NCBI GenBank assembly: GCA_016194305.1
Contig: JACQBW010000034.1
Coordinates: forward strand, 1-43,204
Reading direction: 5' to 3'
DNA from: Nitrospirota bacterium
GTDB taxonomy: Bacteria > Nitrospirota > Nitrospiria > JACQBW01
DNA: 43,204 bases
In this document: positions 10,903 through 42,150 of the stretch, piece by piece
How positions within the stretch are numbered: the first letter of the stretch is position 1
How the letters are laid out: the number at the start of each line of letters is the position of its first letter
Program-made: the position numbers and the translations under genes
Notes under the pieces: model-generated
The model's database searches: none
Told to the model about the DNA's origin: nothing
Seen by the model: the letters and a program-made list of their open reading frames with translations, nothing else

Positions 10903-11757
10903 ATGAAGAATAATTTGAAAACCACTTTTTTGCTAGTTTTATTGACTCTTCTCATGATTTTTATAGGAGGCGCGATCGGCGGCAGGGGAGGAATGACCAT
11001 TGCCTTTGTCATGGCAATGGGAATGAATTTTATTTCCTACTGGTTTAGCGACAAGATTGTTCTTGCCATGTATGGAGCCAAAGAAGTGTCCCAGAGCGAA
11101 GCACCGGAACTCTACAGTACGGTCAGTTATCTTGCCACCCGGGCAAATATTCCGATGCCAAAAATTTATATCATGGAAAATCCGACACCGAATGCTTTTG
11201 CGACAGGGAGAAATCCCGAACATGCTGCGGTAGCGGTCACCACAGGAATTCTCGGAATATTGAATCGCGAAGAGTTAACCGGTGTTCTGGGTCATGAACT
11301 GGCCCATGTTCAGCATCGTGATATTTTAATCAGTACCGTTGCAGCGGCGATTGCCGGAGCGATCAGCATGCTTGCCAATATGGCACAGTGGGGTCTGATT
11401 TTTGGAGGCGGGCGAAGCGACCGGGAAGAGGGTTCAGGTGGTTTGGCTGGTTCGCTCGTGATGATTATTGTCGCTCCGATTGCCGCGATGCTGGTACAGA
11501 TGGCGATCTCCCGTTCGAGAGAATTTGAGGCGGATCGGGGCGGTGCCCTTATTTCAGGCAACCCCATGTCGCTCGCCAACGCACTTCGAAAACTGGAACG
11601 AGGTGTTCAAGCAGTGCCCATGGATGCCAATCCGGCGACCGCCCATATGTTTATTGTAAGTCCTTTGACCGGCAATGCTTTTTTCAAGCTTTTTTCCACG
11701 CATCCTCCGATGGAAGAGAGAATTGCCCGGCTAGAAAGTATGGTTGTTAACGGCTAA
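10903..11757 (+). CDS. htpX: Membrane zinc metalloprotease HtpX
   Basis: Inner-membrane M48 protease of 284 residues that degrades misfolded membrane proteins. Two N-terminal spans (about residues 8-26 and 31-50) precede the zinc motif His131-Glu132-x2-His135 ([11 protein letters not shown]). Two further hydrophobic segments (about 143-165 and 183-202) follow, then the third ligand region [10 protein letters not shown] (about 205-213). The C-terminal THPPMEERI motif is typical. It has its own promoter and Shine-Dalgarno (AAGGA) and is closed by a terminator. Together with Lon in this window it covers membrane and cytosolic proteolysis. Confidence 0.96.
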
Positions 11758-11821: not shown

Positions 11822-13189
11822 GTGGAAACCGACCGAATGATGACGAAATCGAATCCTCGACTTTCTGCGCTTCACATTGTGAATGAAGTCGAAGAAAAGG
11901 AGGTGTTTCTCGATCCGCTGATGGAACGGGAATATGAAAAGCTCACTTCGCTTGATCGCGGTTTGCTGAAAGAGCTGGTCTATGGGACCTTGCAATGGCA
12001 AGGCTATCTGGACTGGGTGATTAACCGGTATGCCGATCGAAAGACCCATCGGATGGGAGAGTGGGTTCGAAATACCCTCCGGTTGGGAACCTATCAGCTT
12101 CTCTTTTTGACGAAAATTCCTTCTTTTGCCGCAATTCACGAGAGTGTCGAACTGGTCAAAGAAAAGGAAGGGCTCCCTTCTTCCGGATTTGTTAATGGCG
12201 TTCTCAGATCCATTCTTCGGGATAAAGAAGCGCACAAAATCCCCGATCTGAAAGACGACAGTTCCCATAATATTGCCATCAAGTACTCCCAGCCGGAATG
12301 GCTTGTAAAACGGTGGGTTGCCCGATACGGAATTGAAAACACGCGGACCTGGTTCAAAAGCAAAATCGGCACGCCCCCATTTACCATTCGGGTGAATCGG
12401 GTCCTGATCGATCGGGACCATCTCTCGTCTATCTTGTTAGACGAAGGGATCAGTAACCAGAAAACAGAATTCTCTCCTGTCGGATTGGTTCTGGATAGAC
12501 CTGGAGATGTGACACGCCTCCACTCTTACCAGAAGGGTCTTTTTTATGTCCAGGACGAAGCATCACAACTTGTCCCTTTTTTATTATCTCCTCGATCCGG
12601 AGATCAGATTTTAGATGCCTGCGCCGCTCCAGGTGGAAAAGCGACCCAATTGGCAGAACTCATCGGAGACCGGGGCGAAATTATGGCCGTCGATCAGAGT
12701 CCCGACCGGATTAACACGCTCCAGAGGAATTTAAAGCGTCTCGGCCTGACATCTGTAAAGCCACGCCAATTCGATTTAACCCGAAATGTAAAAGAATTTG
12801 AAAAGAGAGGATTTAACAAAATACTCCTGGATGCCCCCTGTTCGGGCCTTGGAGTGTTAAGCCGCCATCCGGAAGGGAAATGGCAAAAACGGGAAAATCT
12901 CCTCCCCTCCTATTCGAAATCCCAGTCCCAGCTCCTTGAAGTGGTTTCAAAGAGCTTGAAAGGGGGCGGAATCCTGGTATATAGTACCTGTTCAACTGAA
13001 CCGGAAGAGAATGAAAAAGTAATTGAAAAGTTTATAAAGAACAATCCTGCATTCCGGGTTGAGAATCCGAGGGCTTCCCTTCCGGAAGGTTGCAACCGGT
13101 TTATTGGGAAAGACTATTATTTCCGGACCTTTCCTGAAGGGGAGAATATGGATGGATTTTTTGCAGTCAGAATGGTTAAAAAGACATGA
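11822..13189 (+). CDS. rsmB: 16S rRNA (cytosine-C5-)-methyltransferase RsmB (Sun)
   Basis: Methylates C967 of 16S rRNA (E. coli numbering). An N-terminal NusB-like RNA-binding domain covers about residues 10-145. The SAM methyltransferase domain has motif I ACAAPGGKATQLAEL (about 263-277), the DAPCSGLGVLSRHP motif with the release cysteine (about residue 340), and the STCSTEPEENE motif with the catalytic cysteine (about residue 390). The GTG at 11822 overlaps the terminator T-tract; the ATG at 11837 or 11840 is an equally likely start and would remove five or six residues. Its stop overlaps rpe by 4 nt. Confidence 0.94.
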   Translation: METDRMMTKSNPRLSALHIVNEVEEKEVFLDPLMEREYEKLTSLDRGLLKELVYGTLQWQGYLDWVINRYADRKTHRMGEWVRNTLRLGTYQLLFLTKIPSFAAIHESVELVKEKEGLPSSGFVNGVLRSILRDKEAHKIPDLKDDSSHNIAIKYSQPEWLVKRWVARYGIENTRTWFKSKIGTPPFTIRVNRVLIDRDHLSSILLDEGISNQKTEFSPVGLVLDRPGDVTRLHSYQKGLFYVQDEASQLVPFLLSPRSGDQILDACAAPGGKATQLAELIGDRGEIMAVDQSPDRINTLQRNLKRLGLTSVKPRQFDLTRNVKEFEKRGFNKILLDAPCSGLGVLSRHPEGKWQKRENLLPSYSKSQSQLLEVVSKSLKGGGILVYSTCSTEPEENEKVIEKFIKNNPAFRVENPRASLPEGCNRFIGKDYYFRTFPEGENMDGFFAVRMVKKT

Positions 13190-13836
13190 AAAAAATAGCC
13201 CCTTCGATCCTTTCGGCCGATTTTGGCCATTTGGCGGATGAGATAAAAAGGGTAGAAGAAGCGGGGGCTGATATGATCCATGTGGATGTCATGGATGGCC
13301 ATTTTGTCCCCAACCTGACCATTGGTCCTCCTGTGATCGAATTCATCCGGAAAGCCACCGCTCTTCCCCTGGACGTTCATCTGATGATCGAAAGACCAGA
13401 ACAGTCTATCAATGACTTTGTTTCAGCGGGGAGCGATATTCTGACTGTTCATGTCGAAACCTGTCCTCACCTTCACCGGACTATCCAGCAGATTAAGGAA
13501 AAGAATATTAAGGCAGGTGTCACTTTGAACCCGGCGACCTCCCTGACGCTGGTGGAAGAGATCATCGACTCGGTAGATCTTCTGCTCATCATGTCGGTGA
13601 ATCCCGGTTTCGGGGGACAGAGTTTCATCCCTTCGGTTCTTTCCAAGATTCGCCTGGCCCGCAAAATGATCGATCGTAAGAATGCGAAAGTCATGCTGGA
13701 GGTCGACGGGGGAATCAAGATCGACAATATTAAAGAGATCTCCGAAGCCGGCTGTGATGTTTTTGTGGCCGGGTCCGCGATCTTCAAGAGCAAAGATTAT
13801 CGAAAAACGATTACGACGATGAAACAGTTAATATAG
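13186..13836 (+). CDS. rpe: Ribulose-phosphate 3-epimerase
   Basis: TIM-barrel enzyme of 216 residues interconverting ribulose-5-phosphate and xylulose-5-phosphate in the pentose phosphate pathway or Calvin cycle. Visible signatures are APSILSADFGHL, the metal-binding HVDVMDGHFVPNLTIGP, HLMIERPE, the phosphate loop MSVNPGFGGQSF and EVDGGIKIDN. It overlaps rsmB by 4 nt (ATGA), the common sun-rpe arrangement, and is followed 8 nt later by pheS. Confidence 0.97.
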   Translation: MKKIAPSILSADFGHLADEIKRVEEAGADMIHVDVMDGHFVPNLTIGPPVIEFIRKATALPLDVHLMIERPEQSINDFVSAGSDILTVHVETCPHLHRTIQQIKEKNIKAGVTLNPATSLTLVEEIIDSVDLLLIMSVNPGFGGQSFIPSVLSKIRLARKMIDRKNAKVMLEVDGGIKIDNIKEISEAGCDVFVAGSAIFKSKDYRKTITTMKQLI

Positions 13837-13844
13837 GACCGATT

Positions 13845-15407
13845 TTGAACATTTCTGAAATCATCGACTCGCTCCATCCCCTCGAAAAAAAAGTCCTTCT
13901 CTATTTCCAGCAGGTCCCTATACTCCTTTCTGTACCCTTAAAAAAATTAGTAGATTCCCAAGTCATCGATCCTTCTCAAATTGAAATGGTCCTCGGCTGG
14001 CTTCATTCCAAACAGATCTGCGAAGTCATTGTAACAGGGTCCCGCAAGTTTGCTTCATTGACGCCTCTGGGTGAAACCTATGCAAAGTCAGAAATTCCTG
14101 AAATCAGAATTTTCAGTCGGATCAATCAAACCCCGACGACCATCAAGGAGATCCAGACGAGCGCGGAATTTGAACCGGAAGAAAAGAGTTCGGCCATTGG
14201 CGCTTTAAAAGAATCAGGGTTAATCCAGATCGGTCCGGGGGGTGTTCTTCAGGTAAAGAACAGGGATGTTTTAGCCCAGTTTAACAAGATTCAGGATCTT
14301 CTCAAAAAACTTTTGGAAAAAGAGGGGCGTTGTCCAATTCAAGAATTATCTGAAGTTGAAAAAATGATTGCGGAAGAATATTCCCATAAACGAGGAAAGT
14401 CAAAAGGCCTGATTCGGATTGATGAAGAGGTCGAAAGAGAAATTGTCGTTACCCCCGCTCTTGGAAAAAAGATCCTGTCTTCCTTATCCAACGAGCAGAC
14501 CGAAGTGACTTATTCCCAGCTCACGCCCGAGATGTTGAAGGATGGGAGCTGGCGAAATCAGGCGCCCCGTAAATATAACATTCATCTGAGACCTTCCCGG
14601 ATAGCCATTGGAAAAAAGCATCCCTACAGACAATTTCTCGATCTTTTGAAATCGAAACTGGTCGGACTTGGATTTATGGAAATGAGGGGTGAGCTGGTCG
14701 AAACGGAATTCTGGAACAATGACGCTCTTTTTATGCCCCAGTTTCATCCTGCGCGTGATATTCACGATGTTTATTTTGTCAAAGAGCCATTGTTTGCCAA
14801 ATCGATTGGCCAACCTTTTCTCAATCAGGTCTCTGAAGTCCATAAAGACGGCTGGAAGACCGGCTCCAGGGGATGGCGATATGATTTTGATCAGGAAAGG
14901 GCAAAAAGACTCATTTTACGCAGCCAGGGGACAGCGGTTTCTTCCAGGACCCTTGCCTCTAAACCGGAAATTCCCGGAAAATATTTTTCGATCGCGCGCT
15001 GTTTCCGTTATGACCAGGTCGATGCGACCCACGCTTCTGACTTTTTTCAGGTGGAGGGAATTGTACTGGGCGAAACCATTCATTTCAAAACGCTTCTTGG
15101 TCTTTTGACCCTGTTTGCGAAAGAAGTGGCGAAGGCCACGGAGGTAAAATTCCTTCCGGCCTATTTCCCCTTTACGGAACCGTCCGTCGAAGTGCATGTC
15201 AAACATCCTCAACTCGGCTGGATGGAACTGGGGGGGGCAGGACTTTTCAGACCGGAGGTGACCCTGCCTCTCGGGGTAAAGGTTCCGGTCATTGCCTGGG
15301 GGCTCGGACTTGATCGAATGGCAATGATGGCATTGGATATCCAGGATATTCGGGATCTCTTTTCCCCGGATCTGGAATTAGTCCGCTCCAAGAAAGTCTC
15401 GGTGTAA
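13845..15407 (+). CDS. pheS: Phenylalanine--tRNA ligase alpha subunit, archaeal/eukaryotic type
   Basis: Catalytic subunit of PheRS, which charges tRNA-Phe. At 520 residues it is much longer than the usual bacterial alpha subunit (about 330-350), because a winged-helix N-terminal region (about residues 1-215) precedes the catalytic domain, as in archaeal PheS and eukaryotic FARSA. The catalytic half has archaeal-type signatures: KKHPYRQFLDLLKSKLV, TEFWNNDALFMPQFHPARD, TGSRGWRYDF, motif 2 ARCFRYDQVDATHASDFFQ (about residue 384 onward) and motif 3 GLGLDRMAMM (about 486-495). Translation starts at TTG 13845 with AGGA upstream. It is followed 3 nt later by the matching beta subunit. Confidence 0.93.
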   Translation: MNISEIIDSLHPLEKKVLLYFQQVPILLSVPLKKLVDSQVIDPSQIEMVLGWLHSKQICEVIVTGSRKFASLTPLGETYAKSEIPEIRIFSRINQTPTTIKEIQTSAEFEPEEKSSAIGALKESGLIQIGPGGVLQVKNRDVLAQFNKIQDLLKKLLEKEGRCPIQELSEVEKMIAEEYSHKRGKSKGLIRIDEEVEREIVVTPALGKKILSSLSNEQTEVTYSQLTPEMLKDGSWRNQAPRKYNIHLRPSRIAIGKKHPYRQFLDLLKSKLVGLGFMEMRGELVETEFWNNDALFMPQFHPARDIHDVYFVKEPLFAKSIGQPFLNQVSEVHKDGWKTGSRGWRYDFDQERAKRLILRSQGTAVSSRTLASKPEIPGKYFSIARCFRYDQVDATHASDFFQVEGIVLGETIHFKTLLGLLTLFAKEVAKATEVKFLPAYFPFTEPSVEVHVKHPQLGWMELGGAGLFRPEVTLPLGVKVPVIAWGLGLDRMAMMALDIQDIRDLFSPDLELVRSKKVSV

Positions 15408-15410
15408 CCG

Positions 15411-17156
15411 ATGCCCTCCATTTTAATCAAAAAGAGGGATCTGGAGTCTCTGGTCGGAAGAAAGATTTCCATTGTTCAATTCGAATCCTATCTCCCCTGG
15501 GTCAAGGGGGAGTTCAAGGAATTTGATGAGAAGAACGGCGAAATCAAGGTTGAACTAAACGACTCCAATCGTCCCGACCTTTGGTGCAGCGAAGGGATCG
15601 CCCGGCAAATCAAGCTAAAACTTAATAACCGAAATCCAAAATATCCTTTTTATAGACATTCGGCCAAGTCCAAAAAATACAGAATTTTCGTTGAAAAAGA
15701 GGTCGAATCCGTCCGGCCGTATATCGCCGCCTGCGCCGTTTCCAATTTTGTTATGACTGAAGAAGCCCTGGTTCAGTTCATCCAAACCCAGGAAAAGCTG
15801 GCGGATGTCTTTGGTCAGAAAAGAAAATTGTTATCGATCGGAATCTATCATCTTGAACCGGTTGTTTTTCCGCTCGTTTATAAAATGGCATCGTCAACCG
15901 GAACCGGGTTTATCCCGCTCGGATTCGAGGAGAGGATGACTCTCAGGGAGATTCTTGAAAAACATCCCAAGGGGAAAGCCTATCGTCATGTTTTTAAGCA
16001 TGAGAACAAATTACCCGTTTTTGTTGATCAAAAAGGGACCGTTCTCTCCTTTCCTCCCATTATTAACAGCCGCGAAGCGGGAGAGGTTAAGGCGGGAGAT
16101 CGGAATTTAATGTTGGAAGTGACCGGGACCGATCTAAGGCTGGTCAATCTGGTACTGAATATCCTGGCTACCAATCTTTTTGACCGCGGAGCGAAGATTG
16201 AACCGATTGCAGTCTCCTATCCCTTTAAAACCCCGTATGGAAAAGAATTGATTTTCCCGATGGCAATCGATGTGCCGGTGATGGTAGAAATACGGGAGAT
16301 TGAGAAGCTTCTGGGGGAATCTTTTAAACCGGAACGGGTCAAAAAAGCGCTGACCTCCTACGGGCATAACGTGGGCAGGGGGACCGGCACCAAATTGCGA
16401 GTAAACCCGCCACCGTATCGAGACGATCTGCTCCATTCTGTCGATGTGATTGAGGATGTCGCCATCAGTCTCGGTTATAACAATTTTGAACCGGAGCTTC
16501 CGAAAGATTTTTCAAGAGGGAGCTTGTCCAGGGAAGAGTCTTTCTCGGATACACTCCGCGAATATTTTATTGGGTTTGGATTTCAGGAAATGATCTCCAA
16601 TATCCTGAGCTCGCGGGAAGAGCTGGTTGAAAAAATGAATCTGAATCACGCCCCCCTTCATCTGGTTGAAATCGAAAATGTCATGACAGCCCAATTTTCT
16701 ATCGTCCGGAACCAGATACTTCCTTCGCTTTTACGTGTCGAAGCGGCCAGCAGTAAGGCATTTTATCCCCACCATATATTTGAAATTGGAGAGGTGGCCG
16801 AAAAAGATCTTTCACAAGATCTGGGATCCAAAACCCGGATTCAGCTTTCGGCGCTCATCGCCCATCCGAACGCTTCTTTTTCTGAAATGCATTCCTACCT
16901 GGATATGCTTTTCTATTACCTGGTCGGGAGCAAATTTCTGTTTCATGGATTAAAGTCAGTGAATCATTCGAGCTATAATTCCGGAAGATTTGGTGAAATT
17001 TTTTACAGGGACGAAAATAGTCCGGAAAAAGAGATCCGGGTGGGATCGTTAGGCGAAATTCATCCCGAGGTCTTGGAGAGGTGGCAAATCGGAGTGCCCT
17101 GTTCCGCACTCACGCTCGACGTCAATCTCCTGTTAGCACTCACCCAATCCGAATAA
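15411..17156 (+). CDS. pheT: Phenylalanine--tRNA ligase beta subunit, archaeal/eukaryotic type
   Basis: Beta subunit of the tetrameric PheRS, 581 residues. Typical bacterial PheT is about 800 residues with an N-terminal EMAP-like tRNA-binding domain and a C-terminal anticodon-binding (FDX-ACB) domain, and both appear absent here. The N-terminus PSILIKKRDLESLVGRKIS followed by ELNDSNRPDLWCSEGIARQI is the compact archaeal/eukaryotic layout. The editing-type B3/B4 region (about residues 90-260), a B5 domain around LRVNPPPYRDDLLHSVDVIE, and the pseudo-catalytic C-terminal domain follow in order. It is 3 nt behind pheS and partners it. Confidence 0.92.
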   Translation: MPSILIKKRDLESLVGRKISIVQFESYLPWVKGEFKEFDEKNGEIKVELNDSNRPDLWCSEGIARQIKLKLNNRNPKYPFYRHSAKSKKYRIFVEKEVESVRPYIAACAVSNFVMTEEALVQFIQTQEKLADVFGQKRKLLSIGIYHLEPVVFPLVYKMASSTGTGFIPLGFEERMTLREILEKHPKGKAYRHVFKHENKLPVFVDQKGTVLSFPPIINSREAGEVKAGDRNLMLEVTGTDLRLVNLVLNILATNLFDRGAKIEPIAVSYPFKTPYGKELIFPMAIDVPVMVEIREIEKLLGESFKPERVKKALTSYGHNVGRGTGTKLRVNPPPYRDDLLHSVDVIEDVAISLGYNNFEPELPKDFSRGSLSREESFSDTLREYFIGFGFQEMISNILSSREELVEKMNLNHAPLHLVEIENVMTAQFSIVRNQILPSLLRVEAASSKAFYPHHIFEIGEVAEKDLSQDLGSKTRIQLSALIAHPNASFSEMHSYLDMLFYYLVGSKFLFHGLKSVNHSSYNSGRFGEIFYRDENSPEKEIRVGSLGEIHPEVLERWQIGVPCSALTLDVNLLLALTQSE

Positions 17157-17192: not shown

Positions 17193-17810
17193 ATGAGCCA
17201 AATCGATTGGATCGGATTTATCCCGGCGTCCGTTGCAGTCATACTCGCTCCAGGTCCCGGTTCCTTGTGGGTAGCCCGGGTGGCGGCTTCGTCGGGCAAC
17301 CGCGCTGCCGGTTCGGCGATGCTCGGAATTTTAACCGGCGATGTCATCCTGGTTTCGCTTTCTCTCTTGGGGGTTTCAGCGCTCTTTTCAGCTTATCCCG
17401 CCCTGTTTCATGCATTTCAACTGGCGGGCACAGCCTATCTGATCTACCTGGGACTGAAGTTATTTCTGACAACGGGACTTCAAAAACAAACGCTTGGCTT
17501 AGAAGAAATCTCGGGAACATTCAAAAAAGGGGTTACCATCACCCTTTCCAATCCGAAGGCCATCTTTTTCTTCATGGCCTTTTTTCCGCTTTTCCTCAGA
17601 TCAGGAGGGGAGGGGTTTCTCTCTTCTTATGCGACGATGACCTTGCTCTTTCTGGGAGCCAACCAGGTTTATCTCTTTTTTTTAAGTCGAATTTTTTGTA
17701 AAGTGGGCGCCGTATTTCAGGAGAACTTGCGGCTGCAAAAAATAGCACGCAAAACCTGTGGAATCGTTTTTATTTTTTTCGGAATCAAGATCGCTTTTTT
17801 CACAGGGTAA
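17193..17810 (+). CDS. LysE/RhtB-family amino acid exporter
   Basis: A 205-residue inner-membrane exporter of the LysE family. The family motif is near the N-terminus (ILAPGPGSLWVARVAASSG, with GSAMLGILTGD following), and about six hydrophobic spans are seen. The loop between spans 3 and 4 carries the typical FKKGVTITLSNPKAIFFF motif. The transported amino acid cannot be predicted. It lies 36 nt after pheT on the same strand, with only a weak ribosome-binding site, and ends just before repeat copy A. Confidence 0.9.
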   Translation: MSQIDWIGFIPASVAVILAPGPGSLWVARVAASSGNRAAGSAMLGILTGDVILVSLSLLGVSALFSAYPALFHAFQLAGTAYLIYLGLKLFLTTGLQKQTLGLEEISGTFKKGVTITLSNPKAIFFFMAFFPLFLRSGGEGFLSSYATMTLLFLGANQVYLFFLSRIFCKVGAVFQENLRLQKIARKTCGIVFIFFGIKIAFFTG

Positions 17811-18765: not shown

Positions 18766-19410
18766 TTATTCCGGTTTAGCTTCTTTCACTTCTTCGATTT
18801 TACTCTCCAATCTAATCTCCGCAGGGATTGCCGTTTCAACTTTTGGAATGGCTTCCACTTTTGGAGGTTTAGGTGGTTTGGGTGCCTTTTGTCCCTTTCC
18901 TTTTTCTGATTTCGGAATGACGATCATGACCAGGGTGTTCCCTTCCATCCGGGGAATCTGTTCAATCGTGCCATGAAGGGAAATTTTTTCCATGAACTGG
19001 TTCATCAGTGCCCGGCCGATGGACTGATTGACATTTTCTCTCCCCCGGAACATCAAGGCCACTTTGACTTTGTTTCCCTCTTCCAGAAAATTTCTCGAAT
19101 GTCTGATTTTTATTTCCAGGTCATGCGTATCTGTATAAGGACGAAGCTTAATCTCTTTTAAGACGGCGGTCTTGGAATGGAGCTTGGCATTGTGGAGTTT
19201 TTTGCTCTGTTCGTACTTATATTTCCCATAATCCATGATCCTGCAGACAGGGGGATTGGAAGTAGGAGCGACTTCGACCAGGTCCAGTCCGCTCTCTTCA
19301 GCCTTCTTGATCGCCTCAAAAGTCGGCATGACACCCAGCTGATTGCCTTCTCCATCGATGACCCGCACTTCTCTCGCCCTGATTCCACGGTTGACATTTA
19401 ATTTAACGAT
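18766..19410 (-). CDS. infC: Translation initiation factor IF-3 (ATC start)
   Basis: IF3 controls start-codon fidelity and subunit dissociation. The N-terminal domain (VRVIDGEGNQLGVMPTFEA, DLVEVAPTSNPPVCRIMDYG) and C-terminal domain (LRPYTDTHDLEIKIRHSRNF, VALMFRGRE) are complete. The conserved start LNVNRGIRAREVRVI lies upstream of the first conventional start (19368). In frame, the only usable initiator is ATC at 19410-19408, preceded 7 nt away by GGGAG (19416-19422); an in-frame TGA lies just beyond. This gives 214 residues. The C-terminus is a lysine/proline/glutamate-rich tail of about 40 residues (KAPKPPKPPKVE). It is 30 nt downstream of thrS. Confidence 0.94.
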   Translation of the reverse strand: MVKLNVNRGIRAREVRVIDGEGNQLGVMPTFEAIKKAEESGLDLVEVAPTSNPPVCRIMDYGKYKYEQSKKLHNAKLHSKTAVLKEIKLRPYTDTHDLEIKIRHSRNFLEEGNKVKVALMFRGRENVNQSIGRALMNQFMEKISLHGTIEQIPRMEGNTLVMIVIPKSEKGKGQKAPKPPKPPKVEAIPKVETAIPAEIRLESKIEEVKEAKPE

Positions 19411-19440: not shown

Positions 19441-21381
19441 TTATCCATTAAGCCCACCACCAATATCAACGGAATTAATATCCTGATTTAAAATAGAGAC
19501 AAATTGATCGAGCGTCTGACCCTTGAGTTCCTCTCCGCTTCTTTTCCGGACTGAAATCTGGCCCATCTGAACTTCCTTATCGCCGACAATCAACATGTAG
19601 GGGGTCTTTTGAACCTGCGCTTCTCTGATCTTTTGTCCCAGCTTTTCATTTCGGGTATCCACTTCAACCCGATATTTTAGTTTTTTGAGTTCTGCCGAGA
19701 TTCCTTCAGCGTAGGCCAGCTGTTTCTCTGAAATCGGGATGATCAGCGCCTGTACCGGGGCGAGCCAGGTTGGAAAAGCGCCCGCGTAATGTTCGATCAA
19801 AACCCCAAAAAACCGTTCGATGGATCCCATCAGAGCGCGATGAATCATGATCGGCTGATGCTCTTTCCCGTCGGTTCCACGATAAGTGATATTAAACCGC
19901 TCCGGAAGATTAAAATCAACTTGAATAGTAGAACATTGCCAGGCCCGGCCGAGGACATCCTTTATTTTTAAATCGATTTTAGGTCCATAAAATGCCCCTC
20001 CCCCTTCGTCGACCTGATAGGCCAGACCGGAATCTCTCAGACCTTTTGCAAGGGCTTCGGTTGCAATTTCCCATTTGTCGAGCGTCCCGACATATTTTTC
20101 CGGCCGGGTGGAAAGGTAAACTTCGTATTCATCAAATCCGAATTTCCTTAGAGTAGCGAGCGTGAATAAGATAACTTTCAAGATCTCCGCTTCAATCTGT
20201 TCAATCCGGCAGAAGAGATGGGCATCATCCTGGGTGAATCCCCGAACTCTCAGGAGACCATGCAGAACGCCCGATCTTTCGTATCGGTAAACGGTTCCCA
20301 GTTCCGCAAATCGGATGGGAAGGTCCCGGTAGCTGCGGATTCGCGATTTAAAAATCAGAATATGAAACGGGCAATTCATCGGTTTTAATTCAAAATCAGT
20401 TCCTTCCACTTCAATGGGGGAAAACATGTTCTCTTTATAAAATTCAAGATGCCCGCTCTTTTTCCAAAGATCAATTCGCGCAATATGAGGGGTTCCAACC
20501 AGCTCATATCCATCCCTTAAATGCTCCTCGCGCCAGTAGTCTTCGATTATTTTTCGAATCAGCGCTCCTTTCGGATGCCAGAGAACCAGGCCGGGACCGA
20601 TCTCTTCGTGGATCGAAAAGAGGTCAAGCTCCCGTCCGACTTTGCGGTGATCCCTTTTCTTGATCTCTTCCAGTCGGTTTAAATATTGGTCGAGCGCTTC
20701 TTGCGACGGGAAAGAAGTCCCGTAAATTCGCTGAAGCATCCTGTTTTTCTCGTCGCCGCGCCAGTAGGCTCCCGCGGTATGCAAGAGTTTAAAAGCCGGA
20801 ATCTTTCCTGTGGAAGGGAGATGGGGCCCTCTGCAAAGATCGATAAAATCTCCCTGGTGATACAGGGTGATCGGCGCCGCAGGATCGAGATCTTTAATGA
20901 TATCGATTTTGTAATTCTCTCCCTCTTTTTTAAACCGGTTCAGGGCCTGATCTTTAGAGATCTCTTCCCGGATATAGGGGTTGTCTTTCCGGGCAAGCTC
21001 CTTCATCTTATTTTCAATTTTTTCAAGGTCTTCGGGAGTGAAGGGGGTCTCAACTTCAAAATCGTAATAAAATCCATCATCGATGGGCGGACCAATCGCC
21101 AGTTTCACTTTTGGAAAAAGTTCCTTAACGGCTTGTGCCATGAGATGAGCGGAGGAATGGTGAAAAATATCCTGACCTTCTCTGGAATCAAATGTGACGA
21201 GTTCGAATTCGGTATCTCGCAGAACCGGCTCTCTTAAGTCTCTGACTTCTCCATTAATTTTGACCCCGATTCCATGACGGTAGGGTTCGGGAAGTTTTTC
21301 CAAAATTTCAAATATCAGGATTCCTTTTGGAAATTCCTGTTTCAATTGTTGGTTAACTGTAATCTGGATCGTATCTGCCAT
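19441..21381 (-). CDS. thrS: Threonine--tRNA ligase
   Basis: Class II synthetase of 646 residues, complete. Order: TGS domain (about residues 1-62), the editing domain with HHSSAHLMAQAV (zinc-site histidines, from about 75), and the catalytic core with MNCPFHI (zinc cysteine), RFAELGTVYRYERSG (motif 2) and ERFFGVLIEHYAGAFP (motif 3). The C-terminal anticodon-binding domain is present (ALIIPISEKQLAYAE). It heads the thrS-infC-rpmI-rplT cluster. Its ATG is only 16 nt after a terminator-like hairpin whose T-tract nearly touches the weak AGG ribosome-binding site. Confidence 0.97.
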   Translation of the reverse strand: MADTIQITVNQQLKQEFPKGILIFEILEKLPEPYRHGIGVKINGEVRDLREPVLRDTEFELVTFDSREGQDIFHHSSAHLMAQAVKELFPKVKLAIGPPIDDGFYYDFEVETPFTPEDLEKIENKMKELARKDNPYIREEISKDQALNRFKKEGENYKIDIIKDLDPAAPITLYHQGDFIDLCRGPHLPSTGKIPAFKLLHTAGAYWRGDEKNRMLQRIYGTSFPSQEALDQYLNRLEEIKKRDHRKVGRELDLFSIHEEIGPGLVLWHPKGALIRKIIEDYWREEHLRDGYELVGTPHIARIDLWKKSGHLEFYKENMFSPIEVEGTDFELKPMNCPFHILIFKSRIRSYRDLPIRFAELGTVYRYERSGVLHGLLRVRGFTQDDAHLFCRIEQIEAEILKVILFTLATLRKFGFDEYEVYLSTRPEKYVGTLDKWEIATEALAKGLRDSGLAYQVDEGGGAFYGPKIDLKIKDVLGRAWQCSTIQVDFNLPERFNITYRGTDGKEHQPIMIHRALMGSIERFFGVLIEHYAGAFPTWLAPVQALIIPISEKQLAYAEGISAELKKLKYRVEVDTRNEKLGQKIREAQVQKTPYMLIVGDKEVQMGQISVRKRSGEELKGQTLDQFVSILNQDINSVDIGGGLNG

Positions 21382-23046: not shown

Positions 23047-24357
23047 ATGGATCCCTCGAAAGAAAAATTTTTATTGGATCAGATAAAATGCCCGACGTGT
23101 GGCGACCTGATTCCGGTAAATGAAACATTGCATCACCAGTTGATCGAGGCGGCCCGGAAGGAATTAAAAGAAGAAAATGTCGTGCAGCAGAAGCGTGTTA
23201 TGGCAAAAGAGACCGAGCTGAAAGAAAAAGAGAAAGCGCTCCTTATTGCCGAGAAAAATGTGGATCTGCTTGTTGAAAGCAGGTTAAAGCAGGAAAAGGA
23301 CCGACTGCAATCTGACGCGGTATTAAGAGTAAGGGAAGAGTCGGCATTGCAAATCAAAGATATGAGTGCCCAGTTGGCGGAGAAAGATCAGAAATTGAGA
23401 ATGGCCCAGACCGCCGAACTGGATATCAGAAAACAGAAGAGAGATCTGGAAGAAAAAGCGAAGTCGTTCGAACTGGAGTTAGCCAGAAAACTCGATGAAG
23501 AGCGAAGCCTGATTCAGGAGGAGGCTGTCAGAAACGTCTTGGCGGAACATTCGCTAAAAGACGCCGAAAAAGAAAAGAAACTTCAGGATGCCATCAAAGC
23601 CAATGACGAACTTCGTCGAAAACTCCAGCAGGGTTCCCAGCAGACGCAGGGAGAGGTTCTGGAACTGGAATTGGAAGAATTATTAAAAAGCGCATTTCCA
23701 CATGATGATATTGTTCCGGTGACCAAGGGGATAAAAGGGGCAGATCTCCTGCAAAAGGTCTATAGTCCAAATGGTCAGCCTTGCGGGGTGATTGTGTGGG
23801 AATCGAAACATACGAAAGCGTGGAGCGAAAGCTGGATTTCGAAGCTCAAAGATGACCAGCGGGAGATGAAGGCCGACGTTGCGGTCCTCGTCACGGAAGT
23901 TTTGCCGAAAGAGACGAATCGCTTTGGTTTTAGAAACAACATCTGGATTACAAAGATGGATACGGTTCACGGCCTGGCTACAGCGATCCGCATCACGCTG
24001 ATCCAGGTTACAGTCTCCAAACTCCTCTCGGTTGGCAAAAATGAAAAGATGGAAGTGTTATTCCAATATCTTTCCGGCGTGGAATTTAAACAGAAAGTTG
24101 AGGCCATTGTCGAAGCCTTCGTGGCGATGCAGGAAGATTTAAACGAAGAGAAGAGATTTTTTGCGAAAAGATGGGCAAAGCGCGAGAAACAGCTTGAAAG
24201 AGTCATTGCGAATACCGTCGGGATGTATGGAAATCTGCAGGGGCTGATGGGTGCTTCGATGCAAGCTATTCCCGAATTAGAGATGAAAAATGAACCGGAT
24301 TCTGAGCCCCGGTTGGTCTTGAATGACCAGAACGACGATGATCTCTTCGACGCCTGA
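23047..24357 (+). CDS. DUF2130 protein: coiled coil plus PD-(D/E)XK nuclease-like domain
   Basis: A 436-residue protein. It begins with a small Cys motif (KCPTCGDLIPV), followed by a long charged coiled coil (about residues 30-200). The C-terminal DUF2130 domain has a PD-(D/E)XK-like arrangement: Asp233 (KGADLLQ) and Glu252-x-Lys254 (VIVWESKHTKAW), the residues that bind metal in restriction-type nucleases. The following segments (DVAVLVTEVLPKE, MYGNLQGLMGASMQ) are family-conserved. Nuclease activity is an inference from the motif. It is coupled to the pRiA4b gene; repeat copy C follows immediately. Confidence 0.85.
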   Translation: MDPSKEKFLLDQIKCPTCGDLIPVNETLHHQLIEAARKELKEENVVQQKRVMAKETELKEKEKALLIAEKNVDLLVESRLKQEKDRLQSDAVLRVREESALQIKDMSAQLAEKDQKLRMAQTAELDIRKQKRDLEEKAKSFELELARKLDEERSLIQEEAVRNVLAEHSLKDAEKEKKLQDAIKANDELRRKLQQGSQQTQGEVLELELEELLKSAFPHDDIVPVTKGIKGADLLQKVYSPNGQPCGVIVWESKHTKAWSESWISKLKDDQREMKADVAVLVTEVLPKETNRFGFRNNIWITKMDTVHGLATAIRITLIQVTVSKLLSVGKNEKMEVLFQYLSGVEFKQKVEAIVEAFVAMQEDLNEEKRFFAKRWAKREKQLERVIANTVGMYGNLQGLMGASMQAIPELEMKNEPDSEPRLVLNDQNDDDLFDA

Positions 24358-38908: not shown

Positions 38909-40012
38909 ATGAGGGTTCTTAAACTTTCGATCAAATCAAAATCTCTGATTGTCACTTCATTAGGTGTCCGTTTTATTCTGATGATGATGGCAGTCGGTAT
39001 CGCCGCCGTCAATACCGGCAACAATCTTCTCTATCTTATTTTAGCCATGATGCTGAGTCTCATGGTCATTTCAGGGGTGTTATCGGACACTTCTTTATAT
39101 CGGCTCCGCTACGGCCGGGAATTGCCATCTGCGATCTATGCCGGTCAGCCCGTCAATATGATCCTGACGGTATTTAACGACAAGAAAATTATCCCGGCAT
39201 TTTCTCTGCTTATTGAAGACTCGCTTGAAAAATATTCGGAAGGGTCGATTAAAGATAAATATTTTTTCAAGCTTCCACCGGCGACATCGCAGAAACGCTC
39301 CAGCCGAATTACTTTTGAAAAGCGCGGTGTCTACCCGCTCCAGGGGGTTTCATTTGCAACACGATTCCCGTTTGGAATATTTACGAAGATCAGAAAAGAG
39401 GAAGAATCCCCCGGTTCAGAGATTGTCGTTTTTCCGAGAATTTTCAAAGTTTCAAGCCTAAACGAAAGAGAAACCCTGGTGGGATCTCATTTTTCGACCC
39501 GGAAAGGGCAGGGGATCTCTCTTTATCAATTTCGGCCCTACCATCATGGAGAAGATGCCCGTTCCATCCATTGGAAGACCTCGGCCCGGAAACAAAAACT
39601 GATTGTCAGAGAGTACGAAGAGGAAAAAGAAAAGAAAATTTCAATCGGAATATCGAACAGCGCTCCGATTCCCCCGTCAAATGATGATTTGATTCGATTT
39701 GAAAAAGGGATCGAGCTGGCCGCCTCTTATGTTTCGTTTTATTTGAAAGAAGGGTATCAACTTGCGTTCTTTACCGATGAGACGGTTCTTCCTCTGGGCA
39801 TGGGAGCGGCCCATTTGAAGGAGATTTTAACCTTACTGGCCTCTCTAAAAGCAGTACATCAGTCAGGTCCACTGCCTCGATCGACTCATCCAACAGAAAT
39901 CCCGGTCTTACTGATCTCTCCTTTGAGCCAAAACCAATTCAATTTCAAAAACGACGTAAAGATTTTTCAGCCTGACGAAATTGATCGTCTTGTCTACTGG
40001 AGCGGGGAATGA
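38909..40012 (+). CDS. DUF58 domain-containing membrane protein
   Basis: A 367-residue protein with two adjacent N-terminal membrane spans (about residues 18-62, with NTGNNLLYLILAMMLS between and within) and a cytosolic C-terminal DUF58 domain (von Willebrand A-like). The family motif YQFRPYHHGEDARSIHWKTSAR is clear, followed by KLIVREYEEE. Such proteins act with MoxR ATPases. It starts 3 nt after moxR and its stop overlaps the transglutaminase gene by 4 nt (ATGA). Confidence 0.92.
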   Translation: MRVLKLSIKSKSLIVTSLGVRFILMMMAVGIAAVNTGNNLLYLILAMMLSLMVISGVLSDTSLYRLRYGRELPSAIYAGQPVNMILTVFNDKKIIPAFSLLIEDSLEKYSEGSIKDKYFFKLPPATSQKRSSRITFEKRGVYPLQGVSFATRFPFGIFTKIRKEEESPGSEIVVFPRIFKVSSLNERETLVGSHFSTRKGQGISLYQFRPYHHGEDARSIHWKTSARKQKLIVREYEEEKEKKISIGISNSAPIPPSNDDLIRFEKGIELAASYVSFYLKEGYQLAFFTDETVLPLGMGAAHLKEILTLLASLKAVHQSGPLPRSTHPTEIPVLLISPLSQNQFNFKNDVKIFQPDEIDRLVYWSGE

Positions 40013-42150
40013 AGTTCAGAACCTCTTTTATTCTCTCAGTACACCTGATGGCGCTGGCCAGTTTTCAAGCCTTGATTCAGACCCACGAGCTTCCGTTGAT
40101 CTTTTCTCTTTTGATTGTGACTCTGATCGTAACCAGTTTTGTACTCAATCTGAAATATAAGTCGCTAAAAGTGAACAAAAGCCTGGTCAACGGAGTGATT
40201 TTTGGCGCGGCATTTTTCTTTTTGGGAGACTGGATTTATTGGTCCCGCGGTCTCTTGATGGCCAGCACGCATTTCTTGAATCTTCTGCTGATCATAAAAC
40301 TCTTCACGTTGAAACGCTCGAAAGACTATATTCAGCTCTTTGTCGTCAGTTTTCTTCAGGTTCTGGCTGCTTCTGCCATGAGTATCCAGATTTCGTTTGC
40401 GGTTTCACTTCTTGTCTACCTCATGATGGCAACCTGGGGAATGATACTTTACCAGATGAAAGCCGATATCGAGTATCGTAACCAGATATCCGGATTTCAG
40501 GACAATATTCATTTCCCCGAAACGTTCGAGTCAGAAGAAGTGGTCACTTTTCCTCTCGTCGTGACGACACTTGGCGTCGGCGTCATTTCATTTGTCTTCA
40601 CGCTGATGATCTTTTTCATGATTCCCAGAATGGGAGCAGGATTTTTTCAGAAGAAAGAAGGGGAGGAAATTCGTACCAGCGGTTTTTCTGAAAAGGCCGA
40701 CTTTGGAAGCCTGGCGCCGATTAAACTGGATTCAACGACAGTCATGCGGGTTTCCATGTCGTCGGCCCCTTTTAAGATCTATATTAAAGGGACTTCCTTT
40801 AATGTCTATGATGGAAAGGGGTGGAAAAATACCCTTCATGTTCAGAAAAATCTTTCTGCGGATGAAGAGATTCCCGCGCCTTTGAAATCCGAATCGATCA
40901 TCACACAGGAATATGTGGTCGAACCCATGGATACGTTAGCCATCTTTGCCCTCTCCCAGCCTGTCCGTTTGGAAGGCGGGTTCCGTTCTTTCAATCAGGA
41001 TCAAATGGGAAATCTGACCATGCAGATTAACCCGGGAAACCGCCTTGCTTATAAAATTATTTCTTCGCTTCCGGTCATTTCCAGGCAGGATCGGGAGGCG
41101 AAAGTCGCACAGATTCCTCTCCAGTCCGGCGGACAGACCTATGTCGAATACCCCTTTCCGCATCCGGAGAAGCTGGAAGATCTCGCCCGGCATGCTTCGG
41201 AAGGGACCTCGACTCTCCTGGAAAAAGCATCGGCAGTGCAGCAATATTTAAAAAATAACTATACTTATTCACTGAACGTGTCCCCGTCAAAAGAATATTC
41301 GCCGATGGAGGATTTCCTTTTCCATCAGAAAAAGGGATACTGTGAGCATTTTGCAACGGCCATGGTCCTTATGATGAGAAGCTTGGGAATTCCATCCCGT
41401 TTGGCCACGGGATATTCTCCTGAAGAGTGGAATCCTTACGGCAACTATTTCAAAGTGCGCCAGAGCGACGCCCATGCCTGGGTGGAAGTCTACTTTCCGA
41501 ACAGCGGATGGATTACCTTTGATCCGACGCCCGAAGGAAGAAACTCCCCGTTGAATCTTACATTAACCGCCCAGCTGAAGAAGAGCCTTTTTCCGGTGGA
41601 TCAAATGTTTGACGCACTCCGACTCAAGTGGGATCGCTATGTGGTCCATTATTCCATTCAGGATCAAATGGAGGTGGGGACGGTTCTTCAAAAAAAGGGA
41701 ACATTCTATGCGGGCTATTTGAAAGAGAAGATCCATCGATTATCCGAAAATCCTTCCCGATACCAGAAAAGCGCGGCCGTGTTGATTTTGATCATTTCAG
41801 GAGCGGTTCTCATATACTTCGGAATCAAAAAGCTTTATCCGAATGGGTTTGGAAGGCCGTTTGCTGAAAAAGAGGAGAATGAGGCAGTAACTTATTACCT
41901 TAAATTACTTCAGATTCTCTCCCGGTATCATCTGAACAAGAAACCCCAGCAAACACCTCATGAATTTTTGGCTGAATCAGAAGAAACACTTCACCTGATC
42001 GGAGATCCGTTTTATCCGGGAGCAGAACGACTTACCGAACTCTATTACCAGAATCGTTTCGGTGAGAAAGATCTTTCTCAAGAAGAAAGAAAGCGTTCCG
42101 AAGACCTCCTGAAGACCCTCCGCGAATTTTCAACTCCTTCCCGGAATTAA
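40009..42150 (+). CDS. Transglutaminase-like membrane protein (TgpA/DUF3488 family)
   Basis: A 713-residue inner-membrane protein. The N-terminal part has about six membrane spans (residues 1-215, DUF3488). A periplasmic region with a transglutaminase-core domain follows, with the catalytic triad visible: Cys445 (KKGYCEHFATAM), His489 (SDAHAWVEVY) and Asp505 (ITFDPTPEG). One more span lies at about residues 590-608, and a C-terminal DUF4129-like segment (YYLKLLQILSRYHLNKKP) completes it. It is the third gene of the MoxR operon. The TgpA homologue in Pseudomonas is essential, but its substrate is unknown. Confidence 0.93.
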   Translation: MKFRTSFILSVHLMALASFQALIQTHELPLIFSLLIVTLIVTSFVLNLKYKSLKVNKSLVNGVIFGAAFFFLGDWIYWSRGLLMASTHFLNLLLIIKLFTLKRSKDYIQLFVVSFLQVLAASAMSIQISFAVSLLVYLMMATWGMILYQMKADIEYRNQISGFQDNIHFPETFESEEVVTFPLVVTTLGVGVISFVFTLMIFFMIPRMGAGFFQKKEGEEIRTSGFSEKADFGSLAPIKLDSTTVMRVSMSSAPFKIYIKGTSFNVYDGKGWKNTLHVQKNLSADEEIPAPLKSESIITQEYVVEPMDTLAIFALSQPVRLEGGFRSFNQDQMGNLTMQINPGNRLAYKIISSLPVISRQDREAKVAQIPLQSGGQTYVEYPFPHPEKLEDLARHASEGTSTLLEKASAVQQYLKNNYTYSLNVSPSKEYSPMEDFLFHQKKGYCEHFATAMVLMMRSLGIPSRLATGYSPEEWNPYGNYFKVRQSDAHAWVEVYFPNSGWITFDPTPEGRNSPLNLTLTAQLKKSLFPVDQMFDALRLKWDRYVVHYSIQDQMEVGTVLQKKGTFYAGYLKEKIHRLSENPSRYQKSAAVLILIISGAVLIYFGIKKLYPNGFGRPFAEKEENEAVTYYLKLLQILSRYHLNKKPQQTPHEFLAESEETLHLIGDPFYPGAERLTELYYQNRFGEKDLSQEERKRSEDLLKTLREFSTPSRN

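Follow-up and report, generated by a model that had tools for sequence, protein, structure and literature searches.

A phenylalanyl-tRNA synthetase gene pair beside rplT

The window, the whole stretch of 43,204 bases that we analysed, is one complete contig (C34) from the fragmented genome of a groundwater bacterium. On its forward strand lie pheS (13845..15407), which starts with TTG and encodes a phenylalanyl-tRNA synthetase (PheRS) alpha subunit of archaeal/eukaryotic type with 520 aa, and pheT (15411..17156), which encodes a beta subunit of the same type with 581 aa. The two genes are separated by three bases. Upstream on the same strand we found htpX (10903..11757), rsmB (11822..13189) and rpe (13186..13836). 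The rpe gene is directly upstream of pheS; its stop lies at 13836, the TTG start of pheS follows 8 nt behind, and both genes are probably co-transcribed. The block htpX-rsmB-rpe-pheS-pheT is also present in relatives.

Downstream of pheT, a gene for an RhtB/LysE-type amino-acid exporter (17193..17810, forward strand) precedes rplT, encoding L20 (17980..18339). This exporter gene was not found at the same position in the other families compared. The rplT gene is located on the reverse strand and is convergent with pheST, and further along the window the same strand carries infC, encoding IF3 (18766..19368), and a thrS of bacterial type (19441..21381). The base composition of pheST resembles that of its neighbours (GC 0.46-0.48).

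Two further observations were made in the window. The IF3 frame of infC extends about 46 residues past the family profile at the C-terminus, while the profile match starts at position 16, so that translation may in fact begin further upstream, at a non-standard codon. In addition, three long open reading frames (23047-24357, 38909-40012 and 40009-42150) are without any NCBIfam match.

The enzyme is of archaeal/eukaryotic type and very probably the only PheRS of the organism

Profile searches, domain content, structural matches and phylogenetic trees confirmed that PheS and PheT form a PheRS of the archaeal/eukaryotic type. PheS matched NCBIfam PRK04172.1 with 559 bits over residues 9-519. PheT reached 477 bits against TIGR00471 (pheT_arch, cut-off 283) and just 113 bits against pheT_bact, below the cut-off of 403 for the bacterial type. 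With 520 and 581 residues, both subunits also have the size of the archaeal/eukaryotic type (about 500 aa for PheS and about 550-590 aa for PheT). In PheT, Pfam detected the B1, B5 and CLM domains and neither the EMAP-like B2 domain (tRNA_bind, PF01588) nor the FDX-ACB domain B8 (PF03147), whereas the same library detected FDX-ACB strongly in the bacterial-type PheT of relatives. The original prediction, which had read the lengths of both subunits, a winged-helix N-terminus and archaeal catalytic signatures in PheS, and the missing EMAP-like and FDX-ACB domains of PheT from the sequence, was borne out in each of these points.

Among solved structures, PheS comes closest to human and Plasmodium cytoplasmic PheRS alpha, and PheT to the human and Pyrococcus PheT. 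The AlphaFold2 model of PheS has a mean pLDDT of 68, with poor parts in the core. Its N-terminal ~215 residues were modelled well and form confident helix-helix-helix-strand modules. The best fold match of this model was human cytoplasmic PheRS alpha over 512 columns, for which the pLDDT supports the fold class only. Domain layout, catalytic motifs and the editing-site Asn are like those of the human and archaeal cytoplasmic enzymes (PDB 3l4g, 2cxi). Carriers of the archaeal type have conserved motif 2 (RCFRYDQVDATHASDFFQVEG), motif 3 and the TEPS loop in the Phe pocket. The pocket itself has the sequence FPFTEPS that is also found in bacteria and many archaea, compared to NPYTEPS in the human enzyme. 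N219 of PheT aligns with Asn217 of P. horikoshii, the editing-site Asn of archaeal PheT (PMC3275996), here in the B3/B4 domain. Since the catalytic motifs and the editing Asn are intact, the enzyme looks active. As an alpha2beta2 enzyme it would activate Phe in the catalytic core of PheS and charge tRNA-Phe, while the B3/B4 domain of PheT would proofread Tyr-tRNA-Phe.

The genome of the organism (2.27 Mb, 37 contigs, ~95% complete) was searched with three profiles for a second pheS or pheT, including the bacterial type, and none was found at this completeness. The sole other match to a pheT profile, C1:39-254 at the edge of a contig, is a tRNA_bind stretch that we take for the end of MetG. An overlooked second copy is unlikely despite the completeness of ~95%, given the class-wide pattern described below. 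The archaeal-type PheST is very probably the only phenylalanyl-tRNA synthetase of this organism.

Archaeal-type PheRS is widespread in Nitrospirota and occurs in two further phyla

A profile scan of the Nitrospirota phylum gave archaeal-type PheT above the cut-off in 212 of 396 genomes. Within the class of the window, 161 of 164 genomes matched pheT_arch at E <= 7e-58, compared to E values of about 1e-16 to 1e-39 when bacterial-type PheT is matched to this profile. The three remaining genomes comprise two without a match and one (G237) in which the end of a contig truncates pheS. Among named relatives, a groundwater 'Nitrospirae bacterium' (L003) is closest, with 75-81% identity in PheS and in the three genes before it, and puts the window in Nitrospirota. 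Outside the class, the archaeal type was found in the Nitrospirota families f14, f15, f18, f21, f22 and f39, and the bacterial type in f16, f17, f19, f23 to f25 and others. Beyond the phylum, 35 of 40 Hyd24-12 (Fermentibacterota) genomes and four of nine NPL-UPA2 genomes also have the archaeal type.

Archaeal-type PheRS has been reported in Spirochaeta, Borrelia and Treponema (Andam and Gogarten 2011, PMC3191353), and PMC2939571 cites Woese et al. for the spirochaete enzyme. In the openly searchable literature, a scope outside which most subscription papers fall, spirochaetes were the only bacterial precedent found, and nothing of this kind was found on PheRS of Nitrospira or Nitrospirae. The original prediction, which named spirochaetes and held the type to be unusual among bacteria, was not supported in this point: the enzyme is class-wide and present in other families of the phylum, in most of Hyd24-12 and in part of NPL-UPA2, and the trait is commoner and older than the prediction implied. 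As in spirochaetes, both archaeal subunits replace the bacterial enzyme completely, and their sizes there (513-528 and 514-573 aa) are similar to those in the window. In contrast to spirochaetes, in which the trait has been read as a synapomorphy of one family, we observed it in other phyla, as a polymorphism within a phylum and with exchanges in place. The phenomenon itself was known; these data extend it to Nitrospirota, as a trait shared across a class, and to two more phyla. Archaeal-type PheRS is therefore unfit as a marker of spirochaetes only, and bacterial PheT as a marker expected in every bacterium. More generally, an essential translation enzyme of two subunits has crossed the domain boundary and has become fixed in whole bacterial classes.

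The bacterial-type enzymes also vary. In Thermodesulfovibrionia-like families and NPL-UPA2 (L163, L165, L176 and most bacterial-type genomes), PheT is without the tRNA_bind domain B2, retains FDX-ACB and has ~680-725 aa, while PheT of f16 and f19 is the full-length form. In two near-complete genomes (G122:C98, L206; G166:C65, L207) a bacterial pheS is located behind rplT with no adjacent pheT. Searches elsewhere in G122 (pheT_arch and pheT_bact) and in G166 (pheT_arch) found none, and the gene is probably missing beside pheS by an assembly gap.

The pheST pair was exchanged in place in a sister family and in NPL-UPA2

The canonical bacterial gene order is thrS-infC-rpmI-rplT-pheS-pheT on one strand. 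We found this order with bacterial pheST in sister Nitrospirota families (L163, L167, L169; L165 for rplT-pheS-pheT). Their enzyme performs the same reaction from the same slot behind rplT and differs from that of the window in its frames of ~335-390 aa for PheS and ~680-825 aa for PheT with FDX-ACB. Family f39 has the canonical order with archaeal pheST directly behind rplT (L170, L173). In NPL-UPA2, pheST is located between rplT and zapA both in a genome with the archaeal type (L004) and in one with the bacterial type (L176). The gap between rplT and pheS in L004 and L048 was considered as a possible site of leftover bacterial pheST; it contains trkA-trkA-trkH.

In a tree of thrS, infC and rplT, f39 grouped with families of the bacterial type (98/95), and the bacterial-type NPL-UPA2 genome grouped with its archaeal-type kin (100/100). 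The RpoB tree agrees on the position of f39 among bacterial-type families (100/98). Because the slot is the same and the genes around it agree with the species tree, pheST alone was exchanged, and both f39 and NPL-UPA2 represent gene displacement in situ.

In the class of the window, pheST lies beside rplT in inverted orientation, mostly behind rsmB-rpe; in the window itself it is inverted relative to rplT with the exporter gene in between. The simplest reading is that the slot was replaced first and was then inverted locally, which would leave the pair facing rplT and read behind htpX-rsmB-rpe. A separate insertion beside rplT would be the alternative.

For ThrRS and SerRS, two distant enzyme forms are known to alternate within a taxon as homeoalleles (PMC3191353). 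A foreign gene at the native operon position is likewise a feature of mosaic operons that arise by gene displacement in situ. We found no paper describing either for PheRS, and the present case is unlike these in that the two genes of an obligate heterotetramer move together.

The resident tRNA-Phe keeps its bacterial identity

Bacterial tRNA-Phe is determined by U20, U45, U59 and A26:G44, and archaeal and eukaryotic tRNA-Phe by G20 (PMC9976931). Archaeal/eukaryotic and bacterial PheRS-tRNA pairs show no cross-reaction (PMC3275996). The tRNA-Phe of the organism (contig C4, near 6390) carries U20, A26:G44, U45, U59, A37 and A73. The same bases were present in all 11 carriers checked, eight Nitrospirota including the organism itself and three Hyd24-12; in the Nitrospirota carriers, tRNA-Phe was located with a relaxed pattern that did not demand T39. 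The bacterial-type genomes compared likewise have U20, A37 and A73. The archaeal loci compared yielded no usable tRNA-Phe. In the carriers checked, conversion of the tRNA to an archaeal identity (G20, G37) is ruled out by the retained U20 and A37.

Since the bacterial identity bases are kept, the exchange affected the enzyme and left the tRNA in place. As the organism's own tRNA-Phe has U20, its PheRS would have to tolerate or prefer this base, and judging from the tRNA sequence we infer that it accepts U20 tRNA-Phe. The cognate base of human and archaeal cytoplasmic PheRS is G20, which was not found here; this base belongs to the tRNA partner and is no defining feature of the enzyme family. 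The carrier lineages offer natural experiments in which a foreign synthetase had to become compatible with the tRNA already present, and a single phylum with both PheRS types on very similar tRNAs allows a comparison.

The tRNA-Phe genes in the family of the window (G000:C4 near 6430, L245; G131:C14, L244) do not encode the 3' CCA, unlike those of all other genomes compared.

Origin and descent of the archaeal-type pheST

In the PheT tree, every sampled bacterial carrier fell into one clade (100/100), within which Nitrospirota (97/99), NPL-UPA2 (100/100) and Hyd24-12 (100/100) each formed a clade. Pyrococcus, represented by 348 residues only, and one Asgard sequence adjoined the carrier clade (94/91), which is compatible with the affinity to Thermococcales reported for spirochaete PheRS. 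With bacterial-type PheS as the root, the PheS tree again joined the carriers in one clade (100/100), which was nested inside Archaea. Both trees were built without spirochaete, TACK or methanogen sequences. The nesting of the carriers within Archaea indicates that the enzyme came from Archaea, and the trees support a transfer from Archaea to Bacteria with one origin for the sampled carriers. Together with the single copy, this placement outside the ordinary bacterial clade upholds the predicted horizontal replacement of an essential enzyme, for which a tree and a genome search for bacterial-type pheST had been proposed as checks. When archaeal-type sequences were sought on plasmids, just ordinary bacterial PheS was among the matches listed.

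PheT of the window's family grouped with f15 and f21. We considered whether this reflects a transfer inside the phylum and dismissed it, as monophyly of the class was not rejected in the PheT tree (AU p 0.233). Because pheST resembles its neighbours in base composition and vertical inheritance within the class was not rejected, the acquisition is ancient. For the whole phylum, a single gain followed by vertical descent is too simple, since the RpoB tree demands at least three switches of PheRS type within Nitrospirota.

We therefore consider it very likely that the sole PheRS of the organism is an archaeal-type enzyme that goes back to an ancient single entry, an exchange in place, a putative later inversion in the class and a retained bacterial tRNA. 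An archaeal pheST pair would have entered Bacteria in the distant past, in a single event that accounts for all sampled carriers. It would have replaced the bacterial pair in the ancestry of the window's class, with vertical inheritance since, and the replacements in Nitrospirota and NPL-UPA2 would have taken place in the slot behind rplT. A wider reading, which we put forward tentatively, is that pheST genes are interchangeable homeoalleles repeatedly swapped in place across phyla, and that the enzyme rather than the tRNA shifted its recognition of nucleotide 20 from G to U.

The direction of the exchange within Bacteria might also have been the reverse. The archaeal type would then be ancestral in the carrier phyla, or in a large group of bacteria, with the bacterial type as the newcomer in the Thermodesulfovibrionia-like families, f16, f19 and some NPL-UPA2. 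The wide distribution of the carriers as a single clade, and the bacterial-type families scattered among them in the RpoB tree, agree with such a history. We nevertheless regard it as unlikely, as the bacterial-type outgroup places the carriers inside Archaea and not beside them. Separate transfers, with a different archaeal donor for each phylum, would fit the distant relationship of the carrier phyla and the number of switches within Nitrospirota, but are very improbable given the one carrier clade with full values in both subunits and the separate clade of each phylum inside it in PheT. Archaeal contamination or a chimeric contig, which might be suspected for a window that is one contig of a fragmented genome, is refuted by the bacterial neighbouring genes, the uniform base composition and a gene order that recurs in numerous genomes of the class, some of them closed on a single contig.

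Unusual rpoB genes were also noted. RpoB of family f22 (G010:C13, L119; G019:C1, L120) contains large insertions, with an open frame of ~1,725 aa. In one NPL-UPA2 genome (G396:C96, L121) the rpoB frame comprises 2,508 aa, a length that points to a fusion of rpoB with rpoC.
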